From Candidatus Omnitrophota bacterium (GTDB taxonomy: Bacteria > Omnitrophota > JACPQZ01), in the NCBI GenBank assembly GCA_016190205.1, contig JACPQZ010000047.1:1-18421 (forward strand): DNA of 18,421 bases, in the 5' to 3' direction. The position numbers were made by a program, and so were the translations under genes. Under the pieces are notes generated by a model, which saw only the letters and a program-made list of their open reading frames with translations, did no database searches and had not been told where the DNA came from. Numbering within the stretch: position 1 is the stretch's first letter; each line of letters starts with the position of its first letter. Below are positions 10-12,997 of this stretch, in pieces.

Positions 10-175
10 AAATCCGAAATTCGAAATCCGAAATTCAAAGCAGTAGGTTTCGTATTTTGAATTTTGCTCCTTCGAATTTCCTTCGCGCTTCGTATTTCGT
101 ATTTCGAATTTTATCCTTTCGCTCTGGTATCTGGTTTCTGGAATCTTCTGGTATCTGGTTACTGGTTTCTGGTTA
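10..175. repeat. Heptamer repeat block A
   Basis: Tandem 7-bp words in three sub-arrays. AAATYCG-type units lie at 10-37 (four units). TTCGTAT/TTCGAAT units lie at 89-109. CTGGNNN units lie at 124-144 and 148-175, in three plus four copies split by a 3-nt CTT at 145-147. The first sub-array is roughly the reverse complement of the second, so part of the block can fold back on itself. The linker between the TTCG and CTGG arrays (about 110-123) recurs almost unchanged in blocks B (5269-5282) and C (6593-6606), so this is a copied composite element and not random simple sequence. The block runs into the coding frame of the next gene. Units and coordinates were read directly; function is unknown. 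Confidence 0.9.
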
Positions 176-731
176 CTTCGTGCTGCAACTTACTTGTGCT
201 TGGGGTGCCCCGCAGTCCCTCATCGATTACGAGGGCGTCAACCTTCTTAAGTCCGGCCGTGTCATGGGGCCCAAGCACACGGCCAACGATAAGACCGTCT
301 TCTGCGTCAACTTGAGCGGGGAGGCGAACGAGTATCTATTTGGCGGAACCCTCTCGTCTTCCGAGAAGAGGGATCTCTTTAAAAGGGTCAAATACGAGAT
401 CTTTATCGCCAACGTAGACGGGTCGAATCAGAAGCGTCTCACGCAATCTCCGGAAGGGACTTTAAGTTTCGCGCCCCGCTTCACAGGGGATGGAAAAGCA
501 ATTGTCTACAAAGAGATATACTTGACCGAGGAGTATTTGGACAGGCATCCGGAAGAGGTGTTTAAGAATATCCCGGGAACCCCGAAGCTCCACTATACCG
601 GCGAGTATGCGGTTATGTCGGGGCGTTTTATGATGAATTACTTCCGCCTGATTTTGGAAGACGGCGGTGTGACGCGGCTTACCTTTGTAGAAGCGGACGC
701 TTTTTACGCGAGTCAAAAGAAAAAGAAATAG
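57..731 (+). CDS. TolB-like beta-propeller fragment protein, exported (putative)
   Basis: Probable small periplasmic or envelope protein. Residues from about 50 on contain two segments like TolB/PD40 propeller strands: one near residues 115-155 with the pattern IFIANVDGSNQKRLT, followed by FTGDGKAIVYKE, and a weaker one near 195-215 (LEDGGVTRLTF). At 224 residues it is about half of a TolB, so it cannot form a full propeller alone. The start is uncertain. The frame is open from TTG at 57, and residues 1 to about 41 are encoded by heptamer block A, giving hydrophobic 7-residue repeats (GIWLLVS-like) ending in CAWGA, which resembles a signal peptide. A later GTG at 180 would leave too short a signal. 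The TAG stop (729-731) directly abuts the ATG of the ATP synthase b-delta gene, so the two are probably co-transcribed, but no functional link to ATP synthase is evident. Confidence 0.55.
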   Translation: MNFAPSNFLRASYFVFRILSFRSGIWFLESSGIWLLVSGYFVLQLTCAWGAPQSLIDYEGVNLLKSGRVMGPKHTANDKTVFCVNLSGEANEYLFGGTLSSSEKRDLFKRVKYEIFIANVDGSNQKRLTQSPEGTLSFAPRFTGDGKAIVYKEIYLTEEYLDRHPEEVFKNIPGTPKLHYTGEYAVMSGRFMMNYFRLILEDGGVTRLTFVEADAFYASQKKKK

Positions 732-1454
732 ATGCTGATCCCGATCATCCTGTTGCAAATCCTCATCTTTGCGGGCCTCGTCTTCTTCCTGCGGCAAATC
801 CTGACCAAAGACGTCGGACAGGCCACCCAGCACCTTAAACAGCAGGAGGAGGAAACCGCCAAGAAGGAGCAGGAGCTCAAGGCCAAGCTTCAGGATACGG
901 AGAAATACTACGAAGAAACGCTCAAGAAGGCCAACGATGAGTCGGGTCTCATCAAGACCCAGGCCATCAAGGAGATTCATGAGGCCCGGGAGCGGATTTT
1001 GGAGCAGGCCCGCACGCAGAGCGAGGAAATCATACAGCGGGCCAATAAAACGAGCGAGCAGCTGCGGGAGAATGTCCTGACTGATTTGGGCAAAAAGACC
1101 CTGCTCGCCGCCAGCGAACTTTTAAGAAATGCCCTTCCGCCTGCCTTCCGCAGGAAGATCCACGACGACTGGGTAGAGGAGCTTTTGACAAGCGAGCTGG
1201 CCGCTTTGGACCGTATGCATCTGCCGGAAGGCTTGGGTTCGGTGGAGCTCAAAACGGCGTTTCCCCTCACTCCCCAGGAAAAGGGCGCCCTCAAGTCTAA
1301 GCTGAAGGCGCGCCTCAAAAAAGATTTGGAGATTCACGAGGTGACGGACTCGACGCTTGTAGCCGGTGTGGTTGTCACGTTGGGGGGGGTCGTTTTGGAC
1401 GGAAGTCTTGCCAACAAAATTCGGGATGTGGCGGAGAAACATGCGGGCGGATGA
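732..1454 (+). CDS. F-type ATP synthase b-delta fusion subunit
   Basis: Peripheral stalk subunit joining Fo to the top of F1. Residues 1 to about 22 form one hydrophobic membrane helix (IPIILLQILIFAGLVFFL). About 30-120 is a charged, Gln/Glu/Lys-rich coiled coil typical of subunit b. About 130-240 is a delta-like domain ending in the family signature pattern (LVAGVVVTLGGVVLDGSLANKI). At 240 residues it is longer than b (about 156) or delta (about 177) alone but shorter than their sum, so it is a compact fusion. Mycobacteria have a b-delta fusion too, but much longer. The ATG follows the upstream stop with no gap, and the 3' end overlaps atpA by 14 nt, indicating translational coupling. Fusion identity rests on the residue patterns and on its position before alpha, where E. 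coli has b then delta. Confidence 0.85.
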   Translation: MLIPIILLQILIFAGLVFFLRQILTKDVGQATQHLKQQEEETAKKEQELKAKLQDTEKYYEETLKKANDESGLIKTQAIKEIHEARERILEQARTQSEEIIQRANKTSEQLRENVLTDLGKKTLLAASELLRNALPPAFRRKIHDDWVEELLTSELAALDRMHLPEGLGSVELKTAFPLTPQEKGALKSKLKARLKKDLEIHEVTDSTLVAGVVVTLGGVVLDGSLANKIRDVAEKHAGG

Positions 1455-2919
1455 GCTCACGGCGGGGGCGGCAGGCGTCCAGTTCGACATTATGGAGGTC
1501 GGCAGTGTCCGTTCCGTGCGGGAGTTCATCGTTGAGGCCACGGGTTTGCCCTCGTGCATCAACGGTCAGATGGTGTCGTTCAAGCACGGTTTGAAAGGTA
1601 TGGTCATGGGCTTTTCAGGAGATGAGGTGCAGATCCTCGTCTTCGGTTCCAAGGCCGATATCCACGCGGGCGATGAAGTCTACTCGCGCGGGGAACCCCT
1701 GCGCCTCCCGGCGGGCGAGGCGTTCCAGGGCCGCATGGTGAACGCCCTGAGCGAGCCGCAGGACGGTCTGGGGCCCATACAGGGTGATACCCTAAGCCCC
1801 GTCTTCAAGGAGGCGCGGGGCGTGATGGAGCGCAGGCCCGTGGATCAGACGTTGGAAACGGGCTGTAAAATCATCGATGAGATGATCCCCATCGCGAAGG
1901 GACAGCGTCAGCTTATTATCGGAGACCGTTTGACCGGAAAGACCACCATCGGCATTGATACCATCTTGAACCAGAAGGGGAAAGGGGTCATCTGCATCTA
2001 CTGCTGCATCGGAAAAACCTACTCAAGCCTCCTCAAGGTCTTGACGCTCCTGCGGGAGCAGGAGGCGGTTTCCTACACCATCGTCGTGAGCGCCATCGCC
2101 TCCACTTCGCCGGGCGAGCAGTTCCTCTCTCCCTACACCGCCAGCATGCTGGGGGAGTATTTCATGGAGCGGGGCAAGGACGTGTTCGTGGTTTTTGACG
2201 ATCTCACCAAACACGCTTGGATCTACCGTCAGATCTCGCTTCTCCTCGAGCGCCCGCCAGGGCGCGAGGCGTATCCGGGAGACATCTTTTACATCCACTC
2301 ACAGATGATGGAGCGCGCCGGTTACCTCAAGACTGAAATCGGCGGAGGAGGGTCCATGACCTTCTTTCCCATCGTGGAAATCCTGCAGGGGGATGTGACG
2401 GGGTATGTATCCAGCAACCTGATCTCGATGACGGACGGTCAGATCTACCTTTCCACGGCGCTGTTTAACAAGGGTTTTAAACCGGCCATTGACCTGGGGC
2501 TTTCGGTTTCCCGTATCGGGAGCAAGGCCCAGTGGCCGGCCTTGAGGGAGATGTCCAGCCGCCTGCGCCTTGAATTTCTGCAGTACCAGGAGGTCCTCCG
2601 TATGACGCAGCTTCGGGCGACGGGGCTTTCCAAGGAAGCGGAGGAACGCTTAAGGCGCGGCCAGGTCATCAGCCACCTCATCCTGCAGGATAAGAATGAA
2701 CCGGTCTCTATGGAAGAACAGATCATGCACCTCTACGCCTTGAGCCGCGGCGTCCTGGACAACCTGTCCGAATCAGATATCCACGCCTTTAAGAGGAATT
2801 TCTACAAATCCGCTTCCGAGTCCGCTCCGGCCGTCGCCGTGAGACTTCGGGAGGGCAAGGTGTTGAGCGATGACATGAAAAAAGACCTGGATCAGGCGCT
2901 GGCGGGTTACTTTCAATGA
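1441..2919 (+). CDS. atpA: F-type ATP synthase subunit alpha
   Basis: Non-catalytic nucleotide-binding subunit of the alpha3beta3 F1 head. At 492 residues it is close to the usual 500-513. The P-loop is GDRLTGKT at residues 161-168; the usual GDRQTGKT Gln is Leu here. The switch to RPPGREAYPGD and the arginine finger SVSRIG (Arg358, equivalent to E. coli alpha Arg376) are present, so it can complete the beta active site. The start was chosen at ATG 1441: it is preceded by a GGAG-type Shine-Dalgarno at about 1432, and upstream codons in this frame lie inside the b-delta gene. It overlaps b-delta by 14 nt at its 5' end and gamma by 4 nt (ATGA) at its 3' end. Confidence 0.96.
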   Translation: MRADELTAGAAGVQFDIMEVGSVRSVREFIVEATGLPSCINGQMVSFKHGLKGMVMGFSGDEVQILVFGSKADIHAGDEVYSRGEPLRLPAGEAFQGRMVNALSEPQDGLGPIQGDTLSPVFKEARGVMERRPVDQTLETGCKIIDEMIPIAKGQRQLIIGDRLTGKTTIGIDTILNQKGKGVICIYCCIGKTYSSLLKVLTLLREQEAVSYTIVVSAIASTSPGEQFLSPYTASMLGEYFMERGKDVFVVFDDLTKHAWIYRQISLLLERPPGREAYPGDIFYIHSQMMERAGYLKTEIGGGGSMTFFPIVEILQGDVTGYVSSNLISMTDGQIYLSTALFNKGFKPAIDLGLSVSRIGSKAQWPALREMSSRLRLEFLQYQEVLRMTQLRATGLSKEAEERLRRGQVISHLILQDKNEPVSMEEQIMHLYALSRGVLDNLSESDIHAFKRNFYKSASESAPAVAVRLREGKVLSDDMKKDLDQALAGYFQ

Positions 2920-3761
2920 TCGCAACGATCCCACAGCTTAAAAAGGACATGGAGTTCAATACGGGGCTTTTGGCCCTGATCGAGGTGATGAAGAATGTGG
3001 CCGTGAGCCAGTATCAGGTGCTCGAGCGCAGGCTCACCAGCGGAAAGGAGCTCTTTGATCTTTTGGGCTCGTTCTTCGATCTCATTAATCTCAAGCCCCT
3101 GAGGCACCCCTTTCTTACCCCGATGTCTAAAACCGTGTGCGTGGTGGCGGTCACGAGCGATGCGGGCCTTCTGGGGGGCTTGAACAGCCAGGTCCTTTCG
3201 ACTGCGCTGGAGGAGGTGGGGGACCAGCCTGCCAAGATCGTGATCGTCGGCGAGCGGGGGCAGATGTACCTTCGCGACCGGCGCGTGGCATTTACGGGGT
3301 TTGAGGGTATCCAGGACGACGCCAAGCAGGGGCAGGCTGTCCGGCTCGTGGATTACCTGGCCGCAGAGCTTTTGAGAAAAAAGATCGGCTATTTAAAAGT
3401 GATTTATCCCCGGCCGCTCTCCTTCACGCAGCAGCGCATCGATTGTTTGCAAGTCGTGCCATTCGTACGGGAGGAAAAGGACGCGAAGGAGGGACCTAAG
3501 CCGGAATCTTTTATTTGGGAGTCGCATCCGGCCCGGCTCGCGGAGTATCTCATCCGGCTGTGGATGGCCAGGAAGTTCTACGATATCTTCGGTTTGAGCC
3601 GGCTCTCGGAGCTCGCCGCCCGTTATATCCACCTCGAGGAGAGCGCCCGCAAGCTGGAAAAGGAGCAGGGGACTCTGAAACTCAAGTACTTCCGGATGAA
3701 GCACGAGCTCATAGACCGCAATATGCGCGACCTCTTTGCAGCGAGGGCCCTCTATGGTTGA
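2916..3761 (+). CDS. atpG: F-type ATP synthase subunit gamma
   Basis: Central rotor shaft of F1. The 281 residues match the normal length. The N-terminal helix (residues about 1-50) has the family pattern ending [12 protein letters not shown]. The Rossmann-like core carries [10 protein letters not shown], corresponding to the canonical SDRGLCGGLN, and the C-terminal helix (about 225-281) follows the pattern [10 protein letters not shown], where most gammas have a SE(L/M)AAR motif. The sequence is divergent: the C-terminal helix is unusually charged and lacks the common alanine-rich end. The ATG overlaps the atpA stop as ATGA, and its TGA lies 8 nt inside atpD, so alpha, gamma and beta are translationally coupled. 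Confidence 0.93.
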
Positions 3762-5157
3762 CCGCGCGAAAGGGGATGGGTTGGGATGGGTTATCTCGGT
3801 GCAGGGCCCTGTGGTGGATGTTAAATTTCCAGCAGATTCTGTATTGCCTAATATCTTCGATGTCCTTTGTACAGAAACGATTGAAGGACAAAAGGTTACA
3901 TTGGAGGTGGCAGAGCATCTGCCGGACCACATCGCCCGTTGCATCGCGATTCAGTCGACCCAAAACGTCCAGCGCCACGCGCAGGTGACCTTAGGGGGCG
4001 GACCCATCAAAATACCCGTCGGCGATTGTCTCTACACGCGGATTGTTAACTCTTTAGGGATGCCCATCGACCAGGCCGGGGAAATCGTTGCGAGTACCTA
4101 TGCACAGATCCGTAAACCCCCCGCGGGCACGCGCGTGAATCAGGCGAAGCTCAAAGGGGAGCGCATTGAGATTATCGAGACCGGCATCAAGGTTATGGAC
4201 CTTTTGTTTCCGCTGGTGAAGGGTGGAAAGACGGGCATCCTGGGGGGTGCCGCCCTGGGAAAAAGTATCCTGACCCTCGAGATCATTCATAATATCGTGA
4301 AGAAGATAAAAGGCACCTGTGTTTTTATCGGGGCGGGGGAGCGCATCCGTGAGGGCAACGAGCTTTACCATGCCCTGACGAAGCACGAGATCCTGGACAA
4401 GGTCATGATGGTCTTTGGACAGATGAATGAGCCCCCAGGGGCCCGCTATGCAGTCGCCATGACCGGGGTGACCGTGGCCGAGCACCTGCAGGCCCAGAAT
4501 AAAGACGTCCTGCTCTTTATCGACAATGTCTTCCGATTTCTGCAGGCGGGGAGCGAGATCTCCACACTCCTCGGCCGGGTTCCTTCGGAGACGGGATATC
4601 AGCCGACGCTGATCTCGGAGGCGAGCGAGTTCCACGAGCGCATCCGGTCCACGCGGGACGTCGGCGGGTCTATCACGGCCTTCGAGGCGGTGTACGTTCC
4701 AGCAGACGACCTGACCGATCCCGCGGTGGTCGCGATTTTCAGCTTTTTGGATTCGATCCTCGTCCTCTCCCGCGAAAGGATTCAACTGGGGCTCTATCCG
4801 GCCGTGGATCCCCTGCTATCCAACAGCGCGAATCTGGATCCGGACATCGTGGGGGAACAGCATTTTAAGACGGCCAGGGAGGTCATTCAGATATTTCAAA
4901 AGTATGAGGAGCTTAGGCGCATCGTGCTCGTGGTGGGGGTGGACGAACTGTCCACGGCGGACCGGACACTCTATGACCGGGCGAGAAAGCTCCAGAATTT
5001 TCTGACCCAGCCGTTTTTCGTGGCGGAGGCCTACACCGGCAAGGGCGGCGAGTATGTGACGCGCGAAGAGACCTTGGAGGGCTGCCGCAGGATCATCGAG
5101 GGGCGTCTGGATCACCTTACGGAGGACCAGTTCTATATGATCGGGAGGGCGCCGTGA
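3754..5157 (+). CDS. atpD: F-type ATP synthase subunit beta
   Basis: Catalytic subunit of F1 (ATP from ADP and phosphate, or the reverse); 467 residues, full length. Residues needed for catalysis by E. coli precedent are kept: P-loop GGAALGKS with Lys170, GER with Glu196/Arg197, and Asp257-Asn258 with Arg261 in the Walker B segment IDNVFRF. Downstream LGLYPAVDP keeps the adenine-pocket Tyr. Differences: the P-loop Thr is Ser, the usual YHEM after the GER motif is YHAL, and the DELSEED torque loop reads DELSTAD (397-403). The start at ATG 3754 lies inside the end of atpG (8-nt overlap) and gives a standard N-terminus running into the [15 protein letters not shown] pattern. No epsilon gene follows, although beta-epsilon is the usual order. 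Confidence 0.95.
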
Positions 5158-5163
5158 TGCGAG

Positions 5164-5334
5164 TAACCAGATACCAGTAACCAGAAGATACCAGATGCCA
5201 GAAACCAGGAAAAATCCGAAATTCGAACATTCGAATTTGTTTCGTGCTTCGTATTTCGTATTTCGAATTTTATCGTTTCTTTCTGGTATCTGGTTTCTGG
5301 AATCTTCTGGTATCTGGTTGCTGGTTTCTGGTTT
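5164..5334. repeat. Heptamer repeat block B (inverted arrays)
   Basis: Fills the gap between atpD and the first MshEN gene. Left arm: NNNCCAG units at 5164-5184 and 5188-5208, split by AAG at 5185-5187. Centre: AAATCCG/AAATTCG units at 5212-5225, then TTCGTGC, TTCGTAT (twice) and TTCGAAT at 5241-5268. Right arm: CTGGNNN units at 5283-5303 and 5307-5334, split by CTT at 5304-5306. The order is therefore CCAG word, CGAA word, TTCG word, CTGG word, a nested imperfect palindrome that as RNA would make one long stem with an inner stem. The right half is a near copy of block A. The last unit ends 5 nt before the ATG at 5340. No clear promoter or terminator is separable from the arrays. Confidence 0.92.
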
Positions 5335-5339
5335 CTCTA

Positions 5340-5831
5340 ATGGCTGACGGCTTTCGTTCTAAACCCGGCCTCCACCTGGGCGGGATACTGGTCCGGAAGG
5401 GGTATATCACCGAGACCCAGCTCATTTCGGCCCTCGAGGAGCAAAAGAGGACCAAGGAGCTTTTGGGAGAGATCCTGGTCCGGAGGGGGCATGTCACGGA
5501 AGAGCAATTGACGTATGCCCTGGCCGTGCGCTTCCGGATGCCGCTCATTGTGCTGAAGTCCTTCCAGATCGACTGGGAGGTGGCGAAGAAATTCGGTACA
5601 ACCCTTGTGATCGAGCACCGATGTTTTCCTCTTGACGAGGACGAAGAGACGCTGACGGTGGCGATCACGAACCCTTTGGACGCACAGCTCAAAAGCGAAC
5701 TGGGGGCCCGCGTAGGCATGAAGAGAATCAATTTTGTGCTTGTGACCCCGCAGGAGATGCGGGTTGCCATGGAGCAGTACCGGCATAAGGTGATCGATCA
5801 GATACAGTCGAAGCTTAAGAAGCGGGAATAG
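5340..5831 (+). CDS. Stand-alone MshEN / GspE N-terminal domain protein
   Basis: A 163-residue soluble protein made almost entirely of the domain normally found at the N-terminus of GspE/PilB ATPases (T2SSE_N/MshEN). Visible are two tandem helical motifs, LGGILVRKGYITETQL (about residue 12 on) and LGEILVRRGHVTEEQL (about 43 on), then the beta part with LTVAITNPLDAQLKSEL. There is no P-loop, so it is not an ATPase. MshEN domains can bind cyclic di-GMP through paired RLGxxLxxxGx(6)LxxxLxxQ motifs; here the Arg is His in the first motif and Leu in the second, and the final Gln is lost in the second, so binding is uncertain. The frame stays open upstream through block B, but ATG 5340 gives a normal N-terminus and is preferred. 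Its last codons and stop lie in the heptamer array at 5823-5857. Likely a regulator or partner of the downstream GspE. Confidence 0.85.
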   Translation: MADGFRSKPGLHLGGILVRKGYITETQLISALEEQKRTKELLGEILVRRGHVTEEQLTYALAVRFRMPLIVLKSFQIDWEVAKKFGTTLVIEHRCFPLDEDEETLTVAITNPLDAQLKSELGARVGMKRINFVLVTPQEMRVAMEQYRHKVIDQIQSKLKKRE

Positions 5832-5857
5832 GGATTCGGGAAACGGGAAGCGGGAAT
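5823..5857 (+). repeat. Five-unit CGGGAAN heptamer array spanning a stop codon
   Basis: Five tandem 7-bp units: CGGGAAT, AGGGATT, CGGGAAA, CGGGAAG and CGGGAAT. The first unit covers the last sense codons (Arg-Glu) of the upstream gene, and its TAG stop (5829-5831) is formed at the junction of units one and two. The array ends next to the strong Shine-Dalgarno of the following gene. It thus fills the whole intergenic gap between two paralogous genes. Confidence 0.88.
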
Positions 5858-5864
5858 AAGGAGG
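5858..5864 (+). promoter_or_regulatory. Strong Shine-Dalgarno for second MshEN gene
   Basis: AAGGAGG, 4 nt before ATG 5869, starts immediately after the CGGGAAN heptamer array. It fixes the start of the second MshEN gene. Confidence 0.85.
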
Positions 5865-5868
5865 CGCG

Positions 5869-6351
5869 ATGGGAGACATTCCACGGGGGGGAAAACTCCT
5901 GGGAGAGATCCTGGTCGACAAGAAGCTTATTACGGAACTCCAGCTCATCTGGGCCCTGGCGGAGCAGAAGCGCACGAATGAATTTCTGGGGCAGGTCCTC
6001 ATGAAGAAGAAGTACATCTCGGATGAGCAGCTGGCACAGGCCCTGTCCGAACAGTTCGGGATTCCCTATACCACGCTGCGGGCCGAGCGGGTAGACTGGA
6101 ATGCCGTACAAGAGATCAGCCCATCCGTGTGCGTGGAGGGGAGATGCGTCCCGCTCTATAAGGACGAAAAGATTTTGACCATCGCCTCTGTCAATCCCTT
6201 GGACGTTAAACTCAAGAGCGAGGTGGAGCGCGTGGCAGGCTCAAGGCTTGTGCGGTGGGTCATTATCACGCACAAGGAGATGGAGGTCGCCCAGGACGAA
6301 TATCGCAAGGCGGCCCGTAGACGTATCCAGGATAAAATAAAGGGCCCCTGA
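5869..6351 (+). CDS. Second stand-alone MshEN / GspE N-terminal domain protein
   Basis: A 160-residue paralogue of the upstream gene with the same architecture: two helical motifs (LLGEILVDKKLITELQL near residue 10 and FLGQVLMKKKYISDEQL near 41), then LTIASVNPLDVKLKSEVERVAG in the beta part and a basic C-terminal tail. Compared with the MshEN cyclic-di-GMP motif, the leading Arg and the central Gly are replaced in both copies, while the final Gln is kept in both; ligand binding is doubtful. No Walker motifs. The ATG is fixed by an AAGGAGG box 4 nt upstream. Its TGA stop (6349-6351) is the first three bases of a TGAATCG heptamer array. Tandem duplication just before gspE suggests a role in modulating the secretion ATPase (inference). 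Confidence 0.85.
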   Translation: MGDIPRGGKLLGEILVDKKLITELQLIWALAEQKRTNEFLGQVLMKKKYISDEQLAQALSEQFGIPYTTLRAERVDWNAVQEISPSVCVEGRCVPLYKDEKILTIASVNPLDVKLKSEVERVAGSRLVRWVIITHKEMEVAQDEYRKAARRRIQDKIKGP

Positions 6352-6765
6352 ATCGTGAAGCGTGAAGCGTGAAAAAAAGAAACCAGATACCAGTTGCCAG
6401 TAACCAGAAGAGACCAGATACCAGACACCAGGACAAACCCGAAATTCGAATGTCGTCCGCCACAAAAATCGGCGGATCCGCCTCGGGCGGAAAACCCGAA
6501 CAATATCGAAATACGAAATTCAAAACCCAGAGTTTAACATTTCGGATTTCGGATTTTGAATTTGTTCGTGCTTCGAATTTCATATTTCGAGTTTTATCCT
6601 TTCACTCTGGTATCTGGTTACTGGAATCTTCTGGTATCTGGTTACTGGTTTCTGGTTACTCAAGTCGTCTGCTACGTTTCACGAATCACGATTCACGAAT
6701 CACGACGAGGCTCGCATGACAAGGGCTGGCGAGATACGCTTCACGAGATACGAGATACGAAATGG
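6349..6765. repeat. Heptamer repeat block C, three-layer nested inverted arrays before gspE
   Basis: This 410-nt gene-free stretch is almost entirely 7-bp words. Left to right: TGAATCG/TGAAGCG units (6349-6369); NNNCCAG units (6380-6407 and 6411-6431, split by AAG 6408-6410); a CGAAATTCGAA segment; a GC-rich core with TCCGCC/GGCGGA hairpins (6456-6491); ATCGAAA/TACGAAA units (6505-6518); TTCGGAT to TTCGAGT units (6541-6592, with a short break at 6562-6564); CTGGNNN units (6607-6627 and 6631-6658, split by CTT 6628-6630); TTCACGA/ATCACGA units (6678-6705); and GAGATAC-type units (6731-6758). Words on the left reappear as reverse complements on the right in mirror order, giving a three-layer nested palindrome around the GC-rich core. 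The final unit (GAAATGG, 6759-6765) contains the gspE ATG. Confidence 0.92.
6456..6491. repeat. Tandem small hairpins at the centre of block C
   Basis: TCCGCC (6456-6461) pairs with GGCGGA (6471-6476), and the abutting TCCGCC (6477-6482) pairs with GGCGGA (6486-6491). The middle 12 bp (6471-6482) are themselves a perfect palindrome around GGATCC. The element sits at the centre of the nested arrays and does not follow the 7-bp rule, so it may be the older core of the block. Confidence 0.8.
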
Positions 6766-8912
6766 ATAAGCGCATTGATCCGATATTGACTGAGGGGTTA
6801 TTAGAGGGCGGCCTTATATCCAGGCAGACCCTGGCGGCGGCCCAAGCGGAGGTGGTGAAGACAACCGAGGGCCTGGCGGCCCACCTGGTTAAAAAGAAGC
6901 TGGTGCCCGAGGACGCCATCCTCACCATCCTTTCGGAAAAACTTAAGCTCGCGCGTGTTCATCTCAAGGACATCCTGGTCGATACCTCGGTGATAGAGAA
7001 GGTCCCGCTCAAGATCGCGTCCTACTACAAGTTTGCTCCCGTCAAGATGGATGGCACGACCTTGACCATTGCCGTCTCCTATCCCATGGATATAAAGACC
7101 ATGGACGCCATCCGTCTTCATCTGGGATGTAACGTCGCCTGTATCCTCACGACGGAAGAGGACCTGCAGGATGCGCTCAAGACGAACTACGGACTGGGGG
7201 CGGAAACCATCGAAGGCATCATCTCGCAGACCGCCCGGGACGGCGCCCCCCAGCCTGTCGCGACCGATGAGAAGGTTGAGGATATTGAAAAGCTGGCGGG
7301 GGATGCGTCGGTCATCAAGCTCGTCAATCAGGTGATCCTGGATGCCTATCAAAAGCGCGCTACCGATATTCACATCGAGCCCTACCGGGGCAAGGTCCGG
7401 TTCCGCTACCGCATCGACGGCGTCTTGTACGATGCCAACGTCCCCCCGGACGTCAAGCAGTTTCTGATGCCCATCCTGTCGCGCATCAAGATCATGTCCA
7501 ATCTCAACATCGTGGAGCGCCGTCTTCCCCAGGACGGCCGGGCCATCGTGCGGATCCAGGACGAGGTGCTGGACTTAAGGATCTCCACCATCCCCACCCC
7601 CCACGGCGAGAGCCTGGTGATGAGGATTCTTCCGACCGTCATGTTTTTTGATCTCAAGAAGCTGGGGCTTGCCCCGCAGGATCTATCCATCCTCGAGACC
7701 TTCATCCAGAGGCCGCACGGGATCATTTTTGTGACCGGCCCCACAGGAAGCGGAAAGACCACCACCCTGTACGCGGCCTTGAGTAAGATCGACACCAAGG
7801 AGCGGAAGGTGATCACCATCGAAGATCCGATCGAGTACGAAATGGAGGGCATCACCCAGATTCAGGTAAATTCTGAAATCGGGCTAGATTTCGCGCGGGG
7901 TTTGAGAAGCATGCTCCGCCACGACCCCGACGTCATTCTGGTCGGTGAGGTGAGGGATCTCGAGACGGCCGAGATCGCCATCCGGGTGGCGCTGACCGGT
8001 CACCTCGTGCTCTCCACGCTCCACACGAATGACGCGGTGAGCGGTATCACGCGCCTCTTAGATATGGGACTTCAGCCCTTCCTGGTCGCTTCCAGCGTGG
8101 AGGGCTTCATCGCCCAGCGTCTTGTGCGGGTGCTCTGCCCGAAGTGCAAGGTCCAGGACCGCGCCGTCATCCCGGAGCTCAAGCGCCAGATCGCGCAGGA
8201 CTTGAGGATGCCTTCCGAAAAAGAGGTGAGGGTCTTCAAGGCCCAGGGCTGTAAGGATTGTTCCAAGAGCGGTTACCTGGGCCGGACGGCAATATACGAG
8301 ATCCTCATGGTGGACGATGAGATCCGCGACCTCATCATGAAGAAGGCTTCGAGCGACGAGATCCAGGCGGTTGCGGTCAAGAAGGGCATGCGGGTCCTGC
8401 GGCAGGACGGATGGCGGAAAGTCCTCGAGGGTTTCACGACTCCGGACGAGGTCATGAAGGTAGCGCCCGCGGAAGCCCTGGCGGCGGCCGGTGGGGAAAG
8501 GTCCCCGGTACCGATGGCCTTTGGTCAGCCGGACGAAGAAGACGCGGAATCCCCCATGCCGGACGAACGCGCCTTCGTGCGCATGGAAAAAAGGGTGAGT
8601 ATCCGCTACAAAGTCTTCGAAAGCCTCGACAGGCTTGCCCAGGCGGGTTACCAGCCGGAGCAGTTTGGATCCACAAAGGATATGAGCGCGGGGGGAATCT
8701 TTTTTTCCGCCGACGAGAAATTAGCGCCAGGTTCATTTCTCGAGCTCGTCATCAACCTGCCTCAGGAGAAATCTATTACCTGCCTTGCCAAGATAGTGCG
8801 CGTGGAAGAGGTGGTCCCGGATCGGCGCTGTGACGTGGCGGCGTGCTTCCTCGACCTCTCCAGCGAGGAGCGGGTCCGATTGAACAAGTTCGTGATGAAG
8901 GGGTTGCGTTAA
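6762..8912 (+). CDS. gspE: Type II secretion ATPase GspE with C-terminal PilZ domain
   Basis: Cytoplasmic hexameric ATPase that powers pseudopilus assembly. The 716 residues comprise a degenerate MshEN N-domain (about 1-150) and a secretion-ATPase core with P-loop GPTGSGKT (326-333), Asp box VITIEDPIEYEMEG, Walker B DPDVILVGEVRD and His box TGHLVLSTLHTNDA. A tetracysteine zinc motif follows (CPKC, then CKDC about 45 residues later). From about residue 600 there is an added PilZ domain with R607xxxR611 and D640xSxxG645, the two cyclic-di-GMP-binding motifs. A normal GspE is about 500-570 residues, so the PilZ part is an extension. ATG 6762 is the only good start, with no clear Shine-Dalgarno; a GAGATAC heptamer array precedes it. 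gspF begins one base after the stop. Confidence 0.95.
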   Translation: MDKRIDPILTEGLLEGGLISRQTLAAAQAEVVKTTEGLAAHLVKKKLVPEDAILTILSEKLKLARVHLKDILVDTSVIEKVPLKIASYYKFAPVKMDGTTLTIAVSYPMDIKTMDAIRLHLGCNVACILTTEEDLQDALKTNYGLGAETIEGIISQTARDGAPQPVATDEKVEDIEKLAGDASVIKLVNQVILDAYQKRATDIHIEPYRGKVRFRYRIDGVLYDANVPPDVKQFLMPILSRIKIMSNLNIVERRLPQDGRAIVRIQDEVLDLRISTIPTPHGESLVMRILPTVMFFDLKKLGLAPQDLSILETFIQRPHGIIFVTGPTGSGKTTTLYAALSKIDTKERKVITIEDPIEYEMEGITQIQVNSEIGLDFARGLRSMLRHDPDVILVGEVRDLETAEIAIRVALTGHLVLSTLHTNDAVSGITRLLDMGLQPFLVASSVEGFIAQRLVRVLCPKCKVQDRAVIPELKRQIAQDLRMPSEKEVRVFKAQGCKDCSKSGYLGRTAIYEILMVDDEIRDLIMKKASSDEIQAVAVKKGMRVLRQDGWRKVLEGFTTPDEVMKVAPAEALAAAGGERSPVPMAFGQPDEEDAESPMPDERAFVRMEKRVSIRYKVFESLDRLAQAGYQPEQFGSTKDMSAGGIFFSADEKLAPGSFLELVINLPQEKSITCLAKIVRVEEVVPDRRCDVAACFLDLSSEERVRLNKFVMKGLR

Positions 8913-8913
8913 G

Positions 8914-10134
8914 ATGCCGCTTTTTAAATATATCGCCAAAAAGGGTCCTGACGAGATCGTGGAAGACACGATTGAGGCCCAATCGAAAGATGACGCCGTC
9001 AGGAAAATCAACGATTGGGGTTATCTAGCCACACGGATTGTGGAAGTCGCTCCAGGCAAGGAGAAGGCGGCCGCTGCGGCCGTCTCGCTCTCCACCGCCC
9101 GTATCTCCGGCCGCGATCTCACTATTTTAACGCGCCAACTGGCAGCGCTCCTCAAGTCCGGGGTGCCGATCCTCCAATCCCTGCAGATCCTCTCGGAGCA
9201 GACGGAGGGCCGGGCGCAGAAGGCGATGCTCACGGACATTGCGGTGGGGGTGAGAGAAGGAAAACCCTTCTCGGCGGCGCTTCAGAAGTATCCCCGGGTG
9301 TTCGTTCCCCTTTATGTCTCGATGGTCCGGGCGGGGGAGGACAGCGGAAATCTTCACCAGATGCTCTTCAAGGTCTCCGATTACCGCGAAAAGCAGGAGC
9401 AGGCGGTGGCCAAGATCCGCTCGGCCCTGGCCTATCCGGCGCTCATGTTTGTTACGGGTGTCGCTACGATCGTTTTCATGCTCACCTTTGTGCTCCCGCG
9501 TATGACCGGCATCTTTACCGGAATGGGCCAGGACCTCCCGCTCGCAACCCGGATTGTTTTAAAAATAAGTACGTTCATGAGCGACTGGTGGTACGCCGTC
9601 CTATTGGGACTGGCCATTTTGACAGTGCTCATGAGGCAAATGGGGAGGACACACGCGCAGCGGAAGGCCTTAAGCCGCCTTTTGCTGAACCTTCCCCTGA
9701 TCGGAGATTTTGAGCGGTGGGCGAATCTTTCCCGCTTCAGCCGGACCCTGGAACTCCTCATCCGCTCCGGTATCCCTGTGCTCCAGGCTATCTCGTTAAG
9801 TCTGCCGGTTCTTCAAAATGAGGTCATCAAGGAAGAGCTCGCCCGTTGCCACCAAAAGCTGGAGGGCGGGGGGTCTTTGGGGCAGAGCCTCAAGCAGGGG
9901 AAGGTCTTTCCGCCGTTTATGACGAATCTCGTGGCTGTGGGGGAGGAGTCGGGGCGCTTAGACGAAGTGCTTGCTGAGATCGCGAGCGTATATGAGCGGG
10001 ACGTAGAGGAAGCGCTCAAGGTTATGACGACGCTCTTCGAACCCCTCATGATCTTGTTGATGGGTGGAGTGGTGGGATTCATCGTCGTGGCGATGCTGCT
10101 GCCGGTGTTTGAGATGAACATGATGGTGCGTTAA
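8914..10134 (+). CDS. gspF: Type II secretion inner-membrane platform protein GspF
   Basis: Polytopic platform protein that contacts GspE and couples ATP hydrolysis to pseudopilin insertion. At 406 residues the length is typical. The N-terminus (PLFKYIAKKG, then DDAVRKINDWGY) is the usual GspF start. Two T2SSF repeats are visible, around 72-195 and 274-396, each with the conserved pattern (TRQLAALLKSGVPILQSL; SRTLELLIRSGIPVLQAI). Membrane helices lie near 172-196, 222-240 and 375-400. The stop overlaps the next ATG by one base (TAATG), so the downstream peptidase is translated as part of this operon. Confidence 0.95.
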   Translation: MPLFKYIAKKGPDEIVEDTIEAQSKDDAVRKINDWGYLATRIVEVAPGKEKAAAAAVSLSTARISGRDLTILTRQLAALLKSGVPILQSLQILSEQTEGRAQKAMLTDIAVGVREGKPFSAALQKYPRVFVPLYVSMVRAGEDSGNLHQMLFKVSDYREKQEQAVAKIRSALAYPALMFVTGVATIVFMLTFVLPRMTGIFTGMGQDLPLATRIVLKISTFMSDWWYAVLLGLAILTVLMRQMGRTHAQRKALSRLLLNLPLIGDFERWANLSRFSRTLELLIRSGIPVLQAISLSLPVLQNEVIKEELARCHQKLEGGGSLGQSLKQGKVFPPFMTNLVAVGEESGRLDEVLAEIASVYERDVEEALKVMTTLFEPLMILLMGGVVGFIVVAMLLPVFEMNMMVR

Positions 10135-10922
10135 TGAGAGCAGCGCTCGCCCTTTCCGCGGTCATGGTGATGGCGGTTTTCTTCGCCCGAAACGTTAGTG
10201 CGGAACCGGCTTGGGAAGAGATTAAGGGCGATCACTTTATCGTGTATCATGTCGGCAAGGACGAGTTCGCCAAGGAGGTGGTAAGAGAGGCCGAGCGGTT
10301 TTACCAGCGTATCGCGGACGAGTTGGGCTATGAGCGTTACTCCAATTTCTGGCAGTGGGAGAACCGGGTCAAGATCCGGATCTATCCGGACCGGGAGAGT
10401 TTCCAGAGCTCTCTCGCGAGTCCCGGGTGGTCCGAGGGCCTCGCCAATTATGACACGAAGGAGATCATCTCCTACGCCTGGCATGAAGGATTCATTGAAA
10501 ATCTGCTGGCGCACGAGATCGCGCACCTCATCTTTCGCGATTTCGTCGGGTTTAAGGGGGAGGTCCCCCTTTGGCTGGATGAAGGTGTCGCCCAATGGAT
10601 GGAGAGCACCAAGCGCCAGATCCTGCGCGAGAATGCAAAGGCACTCCTCAAACAGGGTGAGCTCATACCCTTGCGTACCCTCACTTCTACTGATATCCGC
10701 GATAAGGGAAAAGAGGACATGGTAAAGGTTTTCTATATTCAGGCGGCCATGGTGGTAGGCTTCTTAATCGAGGAGCATGGCTCTGAAAATTTCATAGAGT
10801 TATGTCGTAACTTACGTGATGGCAAGTTGTTAGATGAGGCATTGAAATTCGCGTACCCTACCACCATCCGGGACTTGGAGGATTTGGAACAGCGCTTTAG
10901 AAAATATGTGGAGGCAGGTTGA
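10134..10922 (+). CDS. Secreted gluzincin metallopeptidase (peptidase MA-like)
   Basis: 262 residues with a Sec signal peptide (residues 1 to about 23, ending NVSA). The zinc site HEIAH (His127, Glu128, His131) is followed by a likely third ligand, Glu150, in the pattern PLWLDEGVAQWME, the arrangement of peptidase MA-like gluzincins. The catalytic residues look intact. It should act outside the cytoplasmic membrane. Position between gspF and gspG, overlapping gspF by 1 nt, suggests work with the secretion machine, for example maturing a substrate or clearing misassembled parts; this is inference. It is not the prepilin peptidase, which is an aspartic membrane protease. The last part of the gene carries the GGAGG used by gspG. 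Confidence 0.85.
   Translation: MRAALALSAVMVMAVFFARNVSAEPAWEEIKGDHFIVYHVGKDEFAKEVVREAERFYQRIADELGYERYSNFWQWENRVKIRIYPDRESFQSSLASPGWSEGLANYDTKEIISYAWHEGFIENLLAHEIAHLIFRDFVGFKGEVPLWLDEGVAQWMESTKRQILRENAKALLKQGELIPLRTLTSTDIRDKGKEDMVKVFYIQAAMVVGFLIEEHGSENFIELCRNLRDGKLLDEALKFAYPTTIRDLEDLEQRFRKYVEAG
10910..10914 (+). promoter_or_regulatory. Shine-Dalgarno supporting the far-upstream gspG start
   Basis: GGAGG, 10 nt before ATG 10925, lying in the last codons of the metallopeptidase gene. It supports initiation upstream of the whole repeat array that precedes the pilin domain. Confidence 0.6.
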
Positions 10923-10924
10923 CC

Positions 10925-11611
10925 ATGTCTAAGCGAGCAACGTTCGTGCATCGTGCATCGTGCATCGTGAATCGTGAGAAAAAGAAACCAGCTACCAGTC
11001 ACCAGAAACCAGAAGATGCCAGATACCAGAGACCAGATAAGGCTGCAGAGGTGAATCGTGAATCGTGGCCTTCGAATCACGAATCACGAATCACGAATCA
11101 CGAATCAAGTATCGCGGGTCACGGGTCACGGTGGTTCGTGGACTGTGGACCGTGGACTGTCGCAGTGCGCAGTACGCAGTACGCTGTACGCAGTACGCTG
11201 TACGCAGTACGCTGTACGAGCGCGTTTACCCTCATTGAATTAATGGTCGTGGTGATCATCATCGGAGCGCTTGTCGCGATGGTGACGCCGCGTCTTGCCG
11301 GGCGGGGGGAGCAGGCCAAGACGGCGGCGGCCCGTGCGGATATCCAAGCCAATATCGCAACGGGACTCAAGCTCTATGAGCTGGATAACGGCGCCTTTCC
11401 CACCACGACCGAGGGACTCAACGCGCTCATGGCCGAGGCGGGTTCCGCCGCCAATTGGAACGGGCCCTATTTGGAAAAGGCGCCCCTGGACCCTTGGGGG
11501 CGCGCGTATCAATACCAGTCACCCGGCCAGCACCGCAAAGATTACGATCTCTTTTCCTTGGGCCGGGACGGCAGCGCGGGAACAGACGACGATGTTGACA
11601 ATTGGGAGTGA
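10925..11611 (+). CDS. gspG: Major pseudopilin GspG with repeat-encoded N-terminal leader
   Basis: Main subunit of the T2SS pseudopilus. The mature part starts at Phe101 (codon 11225) with FTLIELMVVVIIIGALVAMVTPRL, has Glu at position +5, and ends with the GspG signature DPWGRAYQYQSPG and the acidic calcium-loop-like tail (FSLGRDGSAGTDDD). The mature length of 128 residues is normal. What is odd is upstream: from ATG 10925 (GGAGG 10 nt before, 2 nt after the previous stop) the frame stays open through block D, giving a 100-residue leader made mostly of repeat-encoded peptide, where leaders of about 6-30 residues are usual. Alternative starts are GTG 11165 (leader 20 residues, several Arg) or CTG 11198 (8 residues). 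The residue before the cleavage site is Ala instead of the near-invariant Gly. Function is certain; the start is not. Confidence 0.9.
   Translation: MSKRATFVHRASCIVNREKKKPATSHQKPEDARYQRPDKAAEVNRESWPSNHESRITNHESSIAGHGSRWFVDCGPWTVAVRSTQYAVRSTLYAVRCTSAFTLIELMVVVIIIGALVAMVTPRLAGRGEQAKTAAARADIQANIATGLKLYELDNGAFPTTTEGLNALMAEAGSAANWNGPYLEKAPLDPWGRAYQYQSPGQHRKDYDLFSLGRDGSAGTDDDVDNWE
10944..11216 (+). repeat. Heptamer repeat block D inside the gspG leader
   Basis: Six kinds of 7-bp word follow one another: TCGTGCA/TCGTGAA (10944-10978, five units); NNNCCAG (10985-11012 and 11016-11036, split by AAG 11013-11015); TGAATCG (11052-11065); CGAATCA (11073-11107, five perfect units); CGGGTCA (11115-11128); GTGGACY-like (11131-11158); and CGCAGTA alternating with CGCTGTA (11161-11216, eight units). 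TGAATCG and CGAATCA form an inverted pair. The whole block lies in an open reading frame that continues into the GspG mature domain 9 nt after the last unit. Confidence 0.93.
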
Positions 11612-11624
11612 AAATAGTGCGGTT

Positions 11625-11763
11625 CGTACAGCGTACAGCGTCGTGCGTACAGCGTGGCGTCGGGGCGAGCGGGATTCGTACAGCGTACAGCGTCGTGCGA
11701 ACTGCGAAAGAAAAACCATTCTGAACCTTCGCGCGGTACGCTGTACGCTGTACGCTGTACGCA
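11625..11763 (+). repeat. Heptamer repeat block E before the gspI-like domain
   Basis: CGTACAG/CGTCGTG units at 11625-11652 and again at 11677-11697. A 26-nt stretch is duplicated almost exactly (11622-11647 and 11674-11699). The opposite-sense word GTACGCT lies at 11736-11756, ending with GTACGCA at 11757-11763. CGTACAG and CTGTACG are reverse complements, so the left and right parts form an inverted pair. The block begins within 14 nt of the gspG stop and ends 12 nt before the Phe codon of the next mature pseudopilin. Confidence 0.92.
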
Positions 11764-12158
11764 GGACGAGCGGGTTCACTCTTTTGGAGTTATTATTGAC
11801 TGTTGCGGTACTCTCCTTCGGCATCGTGCTCGTTTTTGAGGCATTTTTCATCACCCTGGATGTTTCGAAGCTCGCGACCAGCCGACTGGACGCGCTCATG
11901 TGGATAGATGATAAGAGTTGGGAACTGCATGAGAAGCTCTTGGTGGCCGGGGCGCTCGAGGAGGCCAAGGCCGGCGGCGATTTTGTCAGAGATCATAAAC
12001 CCTATTCCTGGGAAACCGACATCACGACTCTGGACGGGCCCCCGCAGCTCTACCGCTTGAATATGAAGGTCCGCTGGAAATCGGGTTGGAGAAATGCCGT
12101 ATCCAGCCGGCAGGCGTATTACTTGAGTCTTCCGGAGCCGGCGGGAGAAAGCACGTGA
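11643..12158 (+). CDS. gspI: Minor pseudopilin, GspI-like, with repeat-encoded leader
   Basis: Minor pseudopilin of the T2SS tip complex. The mature domain starts at Phe after Gly (codon 11772) with SGFTLLELLLTVAVLSFG, giving correct Gly(-1), Phe(+1) and Glu(+5). The rest (about 127 residues) has the GspI-type layout, ending with a beta segment LNMKVRWKSGWRN. Identification as GspI over GspH rests on this ending and on the order G-I-J-K. The start is unclear: the frame has no ATG before the mature domain. GTG 11643, inside block E, gives a 44-residue Arg-rich leader and is used here; CTG 11739 would give 11 residues. A GTG at 11608 that overlaps the gspG stop looks like the ancestral start but is out of frame and stops at 11722. 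The 3' end overlaps gspJ as GTGA. Confidence 0.75.
   Translation: MRTAWRRGERDSYSVQRRANCERKTILNLRAVRCTLYAVRRTSGFTLLELLLTVAVLSFGIVLVFEAFFITLDVSKLATSRLDALMWIDDKSWELHEKLLVAGALEEAKAGGDFVRDHKPYSWETDITTLDGPPQLYRLNMKVRWKSGWRNAVSSRQAYYLSLPEPAGEST
12143..12147 (+). promoter_or_regulatory. Shine-Dalgarno for gspJ GTG start
   Basis: GGGAG, 7 nt before GTG 12155. It supports starting gspJ upstream of repeat block F. Confidence 0.6.
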
Positions 12159-12997
12159 AGAAGTTCTGGCGAGCAGGTCTCGTACAGCGTACAGCGTACA
12201 GCGTACAGCGTCAGTCGGGCGGCCTTCTTCCAGCGTCTGCCGCTTGGAGGGGGTACTCGGATCGTGCAAAGTGCAAAGTTCAAAGTGCAATGTGGTTAAG
12301 ATGGAGAAGATGGCGGTTTTATTTTTCTCTTTGCACGTTGCACCCTGCACATTGCACATACCTTATCTACGTACTTCGTCACGCAGTACGCAGTACGCAG
12401 TACGCAGTACGAAGACATGGTTTTACGTTGATTGAACTTCTCGTGGTGCTTTCTTTACTGGGCGTGGTCGCGGTTGCCATTTTTTCAGCTTTTTCAAGCG
12501 GTGTGAATATTTGGAAGCGGCTTAACGAGCAGACGCAGGGTGAGGATGCCGCCATACTATTCCAGAAGCTGGCGCGTGACCTCAGGAATTCAGTTGAGTT
12601 CCGGGGTATGGACTTTCAAGGGGACCCGGAGCTTCTTTCCTTTGCGGTTGTGCGCCGGGAAGCAGCGGTTTCGAGCGCAGATCGTGTGTGTCTTGTGACG
12701 TATCAGCTGGATCTTGCCGAGGGCGCAGTCACAAGAGAGGTTAGAGGGATGAGCGAGATCTACGAGGGGCATTCGGGCTCCATCCTCCCCGTGGTCGGGA
12801 ATGTTCGTTCCCTCTCTTTTGCGTATTTTTACCAGGACCCTCAGACCAAAAATTACCTTTGGTCGGAGACCTGGCCGCCGAAAGTGACGTCTGATGGAGT
12901 GAGGCGCCCCACTGCGGTGTCGGCCGAAATGGTGTTGAGAAAAGACGGTGGCGATGCGCGTTACACGAAGCACATTCCTCTCCCGGGCTGTGTGTGA
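12155..12997 (+). CDS. gspJ: Minor pseudopilin GspJ with a leader split by repeats
   Basis: Tip-complex minor pseudopilin. The mature part starts at Phe90 in RRHGFTLIELLVVLSLLGVVAVAIFSAFSSG, with Gly(-1) and Glu(+5) intact, and continues about 190 residues with GspJ features (LFQKLARDLRNSVEF; LVTYQLDLAEGAVTREV). GTG 12155 overlaps the upstream stop (GTGA), has GGGAG 7 nt before it, and begins MKKFWRAG, a typical prepilin leader start. Directly after this the frame enters block F and stays open for about 240 nt before reaching the cleavage site, giving an 89-residue leader. The simplest reading is that block F was inserted inside an ordinary short leader. An internal ATG at 12290 would give a 44-residue leader instead. 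Normal GspJ is near 200 residues in total; the excess here is all leader. Confidence 0.88.
   Translation: MKKFWRAGLVQRTAYSVQRQSGGLLPASAAWRGYSDRAKCKVQSAMWLRWRRWRFYFSLCTLHPAHCTYLIYVLRHAVRSTQYAVRRHGFTLIELLVVLSLLGVVAVAIFSAFSSGVNIWKRLNEQTQGEDAAILFQKLARDLRNSVEFRGMDFQGDPELLSFAVVRREAAVSSADRVCLVTYQLDLAEGAVTREVRGMSEIYEGHSGSILPVVGNVRSLSFAYFYQDPQTKNYLWSETWPPKVTSDGVRRPTAVSAEMVLRKDGGDARYTKHIPLPGCV
12181..12409 (+). repeat. Heptamer repeat block F, 4+4 / 4+4 nested inverted arrays in gspJ leader
   Basis: Four CGTACAG units (12181-12208), four GTGCAAA-type units (12264-12291), four TTGCACN/CTGCACA units (12331-12358) and four CGCAGTA units (12382-12409). The inner two arrays are reverse complements of each other. 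The outer two are reverse complements except for one A/T position per unit. Each array has exactly four units, so the block is a symmetric two-layer palindrome. It lies in the open frame of gspJ and ends 12 nt before the Phe codon of the mature pilin. Confidence 0.94.

Follow-up and report, generated by a model that had tools for sequence, protein, structure and literature searches.

Heptanucleotide arrays of changing sequence in Candidatus Omnitrophota and their possible spread as quasi-palindromic cassettes

The DNA considered here, an 18,421-nucleotide window from Candidatus Omnitrophota, carries seven blocks of short tandem arrays in which the repeated word changes from array to array while the period stays at 7 bp. 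It raises the question of how so many unrelated words come to share one period, and how they reached the places they occupy. A first-pass annotation of the window had proposed a copying process that measures length, such as a dedicated polymerase or a heptad-reading protein. The analysis described below supports one period with many, switching words, and indicates that the arrays may be the arms of dispersed quasi-palindromic cassettes. The window corresponds to contig C37 of a draft genome that is 92.8% complete and consists of 76 contigs totalling 1.65 Mb. Judged by ATP synthase beta, its nearest named relatives belong to Candidatus Omnitrophota.

One period and many words

For the window's genome, counts were made over 1,603,967 of the 1,648,513 bases (1.60 Mb). 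Exact arrays, taken as those with 14 or more matched bases, were tallied by period, with an order-3 Markov sequence as control. Period 7 accounts for 105 exact arrays and periods 1–6, 8, 10, 11 and 13 for none, the others belonging mainly to periods 14, 21, 24 (7+7+10) and 28. The control contains no exact array. A relaxed scan yields 575 period-7 arrays (568 without runs of N), covering about 1.4% of the sequence. Most other periods that are not multiples of 7 reach 11 to 64 each and period 24 reaches 116, where about 7 of each period's count are runs of N. The genome-wide search proposed by the first-pass annotation thus gives a strong period-7 excess at gene edges and not a broad spread of periods.

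Clustering by unit profile sorts the arrays of this genome into more than 20 word families and many singletons, with heptad units that combine a conserved core with variable positions. Array length peaks at 30–33 bp (219 of 568 arrays), as it also does in genome G056 and in other Omnitrophota. The modal size is about four units, and exact arrays nearly cease beyond 31 bp. Solo perfect arrays and words drifting in phase both occur.

The period recurs in related genomes. Sequence from the ATP synthase region of other Omnitrophota (0.49 Mb) contains 33 arrays of period 7 and no more than four of any other non-multiple period between 4 and 15; the words differ between genomes. G056 (341 kb) contains 91 period-7 arrays, against 0–5 at other periods, multiples of 7 aside. 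In 0.55 Mb from Actinomycetota, Bacillota, Chloroflexota and other non-Omnitrophota, period 7 is represented by four arrays, and the peaks lie at 6, 9, 12 and 15. The CCAG layout with steps 7,7,10,7 was counted 51 times in the window's genome and once in 383 other Omnitrophota, while three-unit CGCWGTA arrays were found in four other Omnitrophota genomes with few copies each. An element shared across the phylum was rejected, as this layout and this word are nearly private. Each genome has a vocabulary almost entirely its own; period 7 and an array length of about 31 bp are what the genomes share.

These comparisons also bear on an assembly or sequencing artefact, which is extremely improbable. 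The compared genomes are drafts of short contigs, and many records of ATP synthase beta relatives are metagenome bins, as such an origin would suggest. However, the same period appears with different words in many independent assemblies, single arrays are short (about 31 bp), and frames are open through the arrays in three orthologous sets.

A dispersed palindrome of 60 bp without heptad structure (CAATTTAG...CTAAATTG) was observed, for example at L270:2268-2328 and L292; it is present at many loci in the genomes G007 and G013. It is a separate family similar to repetitive extragenic palindromic (REP) sequences.

Arm architecture and word switching

Arrays of one period could result from replication slippage with a 7-nucleotide preference set by the polymerase contact length, followed by point mutation and concerted turnover, with selection leaving the arrays at tolerant sites. 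As cited in PMC4679880 and PMC4692102, a 2007 paper is credited with describing heptanucleotide dominance in many genomes and with explaining it by 7 nucleotides being the length that contacts the polymerase; the same accounts report that, in the majority of genomes, no class of long repeat is as common as the heptanucleotides. Since this dominance is already published, period 7 itself is not new, and mixed heptamers in Microcystis have been reported as well (PMC4679880, PMC4692102). Slippage would account for the solo perfect arrays and for words drifting in phase. The array length, cut off near 31 bp without decay, argues against it, as does the arrangement of the arrays.

In the five largest families, 59 same-family inverted pairs no more than 400 bp apart have the expected polarity and none has the opposite one; the whole-genome count of inverted pairs in these families is 73. 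Many arrays are solo, including most of those inside genes. Genome-wide, pairs from different large families were counted as nested in just two cases and as crossing in none. This count gives no strict nesting rule, although nesting is plain in individual blocks. The first-pass annotation overlooked this inverted and in part nested architecture, as well as the arrays in frame within genes.

The main family, CCAG/CTGG, comprises 93 arms, of which 39 have the steps 7,7,7,10,7,7 and 14 have 7,7,7,11,7,7. Its layout is four heptads, one step of 10–11 bp at a fixed place, and three heptads. Not every step is thus 7 bp, which corrects the first-pass annotation. Most elements combine an A-type arm with a B-type arm, and both orientations occur. 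The arms carry terminal inverted repeats with outward AG.AACC..GGTT.CT ends, and enclose loops of 1 to more than 300 nt with variable inner sequence. Fixed polarity, the fixed 10–11 bp step and the A/B arms are all points against slippage.

The variable dinucleotide between CCAG cores is informative. Adjacent units of one arm agree at a rate of 0.10, compared with 0.24 for random draws from the pool, and agreement across arms is 0.336 at the same position compared with 0.224 at different positions. Slippage would make neighbours alike; here neighbours differ and positions are shared, which indicates that whole CCAG arms were dispersed and that neighbouring units were kept different. Simple slippage fails for this family. 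The two arms of one element are complementary at 44.0 of 54 positions, compared with 45.5 for arms of different elements, and 0 of 2000 permutations were as low, a p-value that is optimistic because the elements are related to each other. This suggests that palindromes and repeats, when perfect, are lost or avoided.

Composite elements also exist: at several loci the outer CGTGAAT/CACGATT arms are the same, and so is the sequence that separates them from the inner arms. At L037:43-238 and L019:16346-16390, a conserved spacer (GAGCAAATGAGCCGAATGG...CTATGACG) recurs between CGCWGTA arrays, so the CGCWGTA family appears to spread as a larger composite unit.

The compared relatives of the window's genome are related to it at phylum level only; the evidence for word switching therefore comes from another genus of Omnitrophota and not from the window itself. 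Four loci were compared in three congeneric species, G007, G010 and G013, which are about 80% identical. In valS, the site after STLGWP carries AAAAATC in G010, AAAGAGC in G007 and ACAGAAG in G013, all in frame. The site before the GNIPQ motif of lnt reads GTCACCA in G010 and CCCACTT in G007 and G013, and the site after KDNHI in nadC reads TCGCAAA (G010), TACAAGC (G007) and AAATCCC (G013). Presence varies too: a TCGGTTA/CCGAACA hairpin occupies one valS site in G010 only, and at one lnt site two species carry an ACCCTCT array that the third lacks. Of the 12 orthologous sites where two or more species have arrays, 11 differ in word by hand count. GTCACCA, the lnt word of G010, occurs at other loci in G007. 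At locus L118, two sites read GGTTTTT and AGGGTAG in the relatives and GATTTTT in G010; the complement of the latter, AAAAATC, is found again at dozens of positions in that genome.

The same site thus carries different words, and the same word is found at different sites. As the word at one place differs between sister species, ordinary slippage of one repeat cannot explain the arrays, in agreement with the first-pass annotation, whose case against it is strengthened by the unlike CTGG neighbours and the length peak. Furthermore, the frames through the arrays in valS, lnt and nadC remain open. Single-unit steps of 7, which would break these genes, are therefore not the usual change there. Slippage with concerted turnover is a rival for solo perfect arrays and in-place single-base shifts, such as the whole-array change from GGTTTTT to GATTTTT at an orthologous site; as an account of the arrays at large it is rather unlikely. 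In a comparison of L118 with L281/L283, G007 and G013 were found to share 97% identity in one half of the locus and 83% in its other half. Array sites lie between the two halves, and the pattern looks like recombination with a breakpoint near the arrays.

Sites between and within genes

Intergenic positions are held by 241 of 282 blocks, with medians of 10 bp past the stop codon and 19 bp ahead of the first possible start, where gene starts and open reading frame (ORF) positions come from a simple, crude ORF caller. The first-pass annotation had confined the blocks to gene boundaries and N-terminal ends. The preference is real, but the restriction was too strong, as arrays also lie in frame inside genes. 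Gap orientation follows the genome background (85% tandem compared with 82%), with no preference for convergent or divergent gaps. A terminator or promoter role, judged by gene orientation, was rejected for this reason. In G056, several CTGG hairpins (L244, L247, L248) end in TATGCTATTACAAGGAG or close variants, so that a ribosome-binding-site-like AAGGAG follows the element boundary shortly 5' of the start codon.

In the window, Tandem Repeats Finder returned 44 rows, most with period 7 or a multiple of 7, and confirmed the arrays and words of the first-pass annotation (Table 1). Three of the arrays enter prepilin leaders right before the FTLxELL motif. RNA folding gave z-scores against shuffles of -10.2 for positions 5158-5342 (Block 2), -6.4 for 12175-12416 (Block 7), and -5.0 for 11620-11772 (Block 6). 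The predicted Block 7 structure has 6-bp helices with one mismatch per 7 bp (6+1 pairing). Rfam matches in the window numbered zero.

Such positions and strong predicted hairpins are what would be expected of functional elements of the host, namely sites of an oligomeric protein stepping 7 bp, or intercistronic REP-like RNA hairpins that tune mRNA stability or translation. The conserved core with variable positions in each heptad is consistent with this. A precedent is Omega of pSM19035, a ribbon-helix-helix ParB protein that binds consecutive WATCACW heptads and requires at least four contiguous ones for full activity (PMC9499535), close to the modal array of about four units described here. 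The likeness extends to consecutive 7-bp sites with degenerate A/T positions, whereas the Omega heptads are of one word and have a plasmid centromere function. Omega shows that readers of consecutive 7-bp sites exist; for Omnitrophota it is only an analogy. More than 20 unrelated words per genome and nearly private vocabularies argue against one reader, gap orientation does not depart from the background, copies in frame inside enzymes are hard to see as regulatory, and the arms of one element pair worse than those of different elements. A host function is unlikely.

The in-frame arrays listed for the window's genome either fall inside a Pfam domain or separate two domains of a single reading frame (Table 1). 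In lnt of G007, a CTGTNNT array (L264, about 2034-2071) encodes part of an apparent transmembrane helix (LLSVLCLLSSVFIYGY); arrays can thus supply membrane segments.

Table 1. Array blocks of the window and in-frame arrays of its genome (blocks in window positions, in-frame arrays in protein residues)
Feature	Position	Strand	Arrays	Context
Block 1	10..177	.	AAATYCG 10-39; TTCGTAT 81-111, its inverted partner; CTGG right arm 120-177, layout 7,7,7,10,7,7	Left side cut by contig end; extends into N-terminal part of ORF ending at 731
Block 2	5162..5336	.	CCAG left arm 5162-5212; CGAAATT 5212-5235; TTTCGTA 5238-5270; CTGG right arm 5279-5336	Nested hairpin between atpD (stop 5157) and MshEN ORF (ATG 5340)
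Block 3	5819..5857	+	CGGGAAN	Over stop codon of ORF ending at 5831
Block 4	6349..6763	.	TGAAGCG; CCAG arm 6378-6435; TTTCGGA 6539-6563; CTGG arm 6603-6660; CGAATCA 6674-6705; ACGAGAT 6743-6763	TGAAGCG over stop at 6351; ACGAGAT up to ATG at 6762 of gspE
Block 5	10944..11218	.	CGTGCAT; CCAG arm 10983-11040; GTGAATC 11051-11067 facing CGAATCA 11073-11113; CGGGTCA; GTGGACY; CGCWGTA 11161-11218	CGCWGTA encodes GspG prepilin leader (...RSTQYAVRSTLYAVRCTSA, then FTLIELMVVV); T2SSG/N_methyl Pfam matches
Block 6	11625..11768	.	CGTACAG 11625-11655 and 11677-11708 facing CGCTGTA 11732-11768	5' of and into leader of second prepilin (N_methyl match)
Block 7	12181..12414	.	CGTACAG 12181-12211 paired with CGCAGTA 12381-12414; inner GTGCAAA 12264-12294 and TTGCACA 12331-12359	Nested hairpin; extends into leader of third prepilin, GspJ-like (N_methyl/T2SSJ matches)
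DNA polymerase I (PolA)	residues 355-368			Within 3'-5' exonuclease domain
KdsB-like cytidylyltransferase	residues 177-188			Within domain
Dihydrolipoamide-dehydrogenase-like (Lpd-like) protein	residues 256-267			Within domain
HisH-like amidotransferase	residues 110-141			Within domain
CarA	residues 242-253			Between its two domains
Phosphohexomutase (PGM/PMM)	residues 126-139			Between domains I and II

The genes between the blocks include an ATP synthase locus of unusual form (732-5157). It encodes a fusion of the b and delta subunits (ATP-synt_B plus OSCP) as well as alpha, gamma and beta-like subunits. The beta-like subunit has a V/A-type C-terminal domain and the P-loop GGAALGKS, and no epsilon gene follows it. 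ATP synthase relatives with 64–77% identity were found across Omnitrophota. At 6762-8912 lies the gene of a GspE/PilB ATPase that has MshEN at its N-terminus and PilZ at its C-terminus. Two ORFs precede it, one for a stand-alone MshEN (5340-5831) and one that resembles it (5869-6351).

Possible origin of the arrays and related systems

The arrays may be explained as arms of dispersed quasi-palindromic heptad cassettes that land at tolerated sites and are rewritten in the current vocabulary of the host, a reading judged to be about evenly balanced between right and wrong. The cassettes would be short, with roughly 31–54 bp per arm, and would spread within a genome wherever extra DNA is tolerated. 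Such sites would include stop-to-start gaps, the leaders of prepilins, and protein linkers or surface parts in which the net insertion leaves the frame intact. Every genome would have its own set of currently spreading words, and an array at a tolerated site could later be overwritten by or swapped for another word, with site, period 7 and arm length being kept. Spread might proceed by copy-and-insert or by conversion through a recognising enzyme, and the 7-bp step may reflect the DNA contact of that enzyme. The constancy of 7 across all families is an argument for a single machinery that contacts 7 bp. The main families give the impression of having spread as finished arms of common descent rather than having been made at each place, and no length-measuring polymerase or reader of the kind proposed by the first-pass annotation was demonstrated.

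Several observations weigh against the cassette reading. No consistent target-site duplication was found for 36 CTGG elements (permutation p = 0.07), with one or two matches at most at k = 4–7, near the permuted numbers. None of four Y1/RAYT-type transposase genes (Y1_Tnp) is flanked by inverted arrays. The reverse transcriptase domain RVT_1 was not found in G000, G010, G013 or G056, and G007 and G016 have one each. Many solo arrays, some of them perfect, could be slippage products, and a kept site with a changed word could reflect concerted evolution by unit turnover, as exemplified by L118, where all GGTTTTT units read GATTTTT in G010. With the nearest compared relatives only about 80% identical, no individual insertion was observed.

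Specific routes of mobilisation were also considered. Mobilisation by a RAYT/REP system was rejected, as the four Y1 transposases lack flanking inverted arrays; a single ACGTCCC array lies directly 5' of a Y1/RAYT-like transposase gene (L066:5291-5339), one case in four and about as expected from array density. A search for an autonomous element, with inverted arrays around genes at 0.5–4 kb, gave one same-family pair of the right polarity that encloses genes, neither of which is transposase-like. Copying driven by a reverse transcriptase, of a diversity-generating retroelement or group II intron, was rejected, as the 92.8% complete genome of the window has no RVT_1.

The arrays could also be ordinary non-autonomous transposons of known families, such as miniature inverted-repeat transposable elements (MITEs) or REPs, whose subterminal binding sites happen to be 7 bp apart. 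Inverted arms in both orientations, dispersal next to genes and the presence of Y1 transposases agree with this. The lack of target duplications and of an array-flanked transposase, the variable inner sequence, and dozens of families all at period 7 do not, and this explanation is very unlikely. REP sequences, bacterial interspersed mosaic elements and MITEs share short inverted repeats between genes, many copies and both orientations with the arrays, which differ from them in heptad-array arms, variable loops, and the absence of a RAYT association and of target duplications in the searches described.

The nearest analogue is provided by Rickettsia palindromic elements, dispersed palindromes found in frame in unrelated metabolic genes at structure-compatible positions (PMC10969869). 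The Omnitrophota arrays are likewise present in frame in conserved protein genes and palindromic in structure, though many are solo. Rickettsia palindromic elements form a family of about 150 bp with conserved encoded peptides and no 7-bp units, and word switching is not described in their review (PMC10969869). The arrays are about 31 bp long, and their words, and hence peptides, differ between genomes.

Heptameric simple sequence repeats and cyanobacterial STRR-type repeats are known from Calothrix, Nostoc, Xanthomonas (GGGNATC) and Beggiatoaceae (TAACTGA). They have 7-bp units in few copies, mostly intergenic or near start codons, and several words may coexist, with occasional inverted pairs (PMC4692102, PMC4679880). 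The 7-bp excess of this class is found here as well (105 against 0 arrays; 91 against 0–5 in G056). What sets the present arrays apart from these repeats is the number of words, dozens in each genome, together with arms of constant size, step and polarity, copies in frame in conserved enzymes, and switched words at orthologous sites. Borg tandem repeats resemble the arrays as fast-evolving, independently formed arrays in intergenic regions and ORFs. Their units are perfect, of varied length and always divisible by three in ORFs (PMC9879509), whereas the Omnitrophota unit is 7 everywhere. The combination of period 7, dozens of words, fixed arms, in-frame copies and word switching was not found described in the literature consulted, mostly outside subscription journals.

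A further, bolder proposal is a dedicated machine measuring seven nucleotides, which would make or rewrite arrays of about four units at permissive sites, with words replaced from a genome-specific vocabulary and sites persisting throughout a genus. It is doubtful, though of some plausibility. If true, it would represent length-coded, sequence-free dispersal of DNA that also edits loops of essential proteins.

The dominance of heptamers among long bacterial repeats was noticed in 2007, and Omnitrophota are a phylum in which the effect is very strong. Word-switched sites inside essential genes, where the reading frame constrains simple slippage, make the heptamer question testable. Non-coding hairpin DNA would furthermore be a route by which new loops and leader peptides are supplied to housekeeping proteins.

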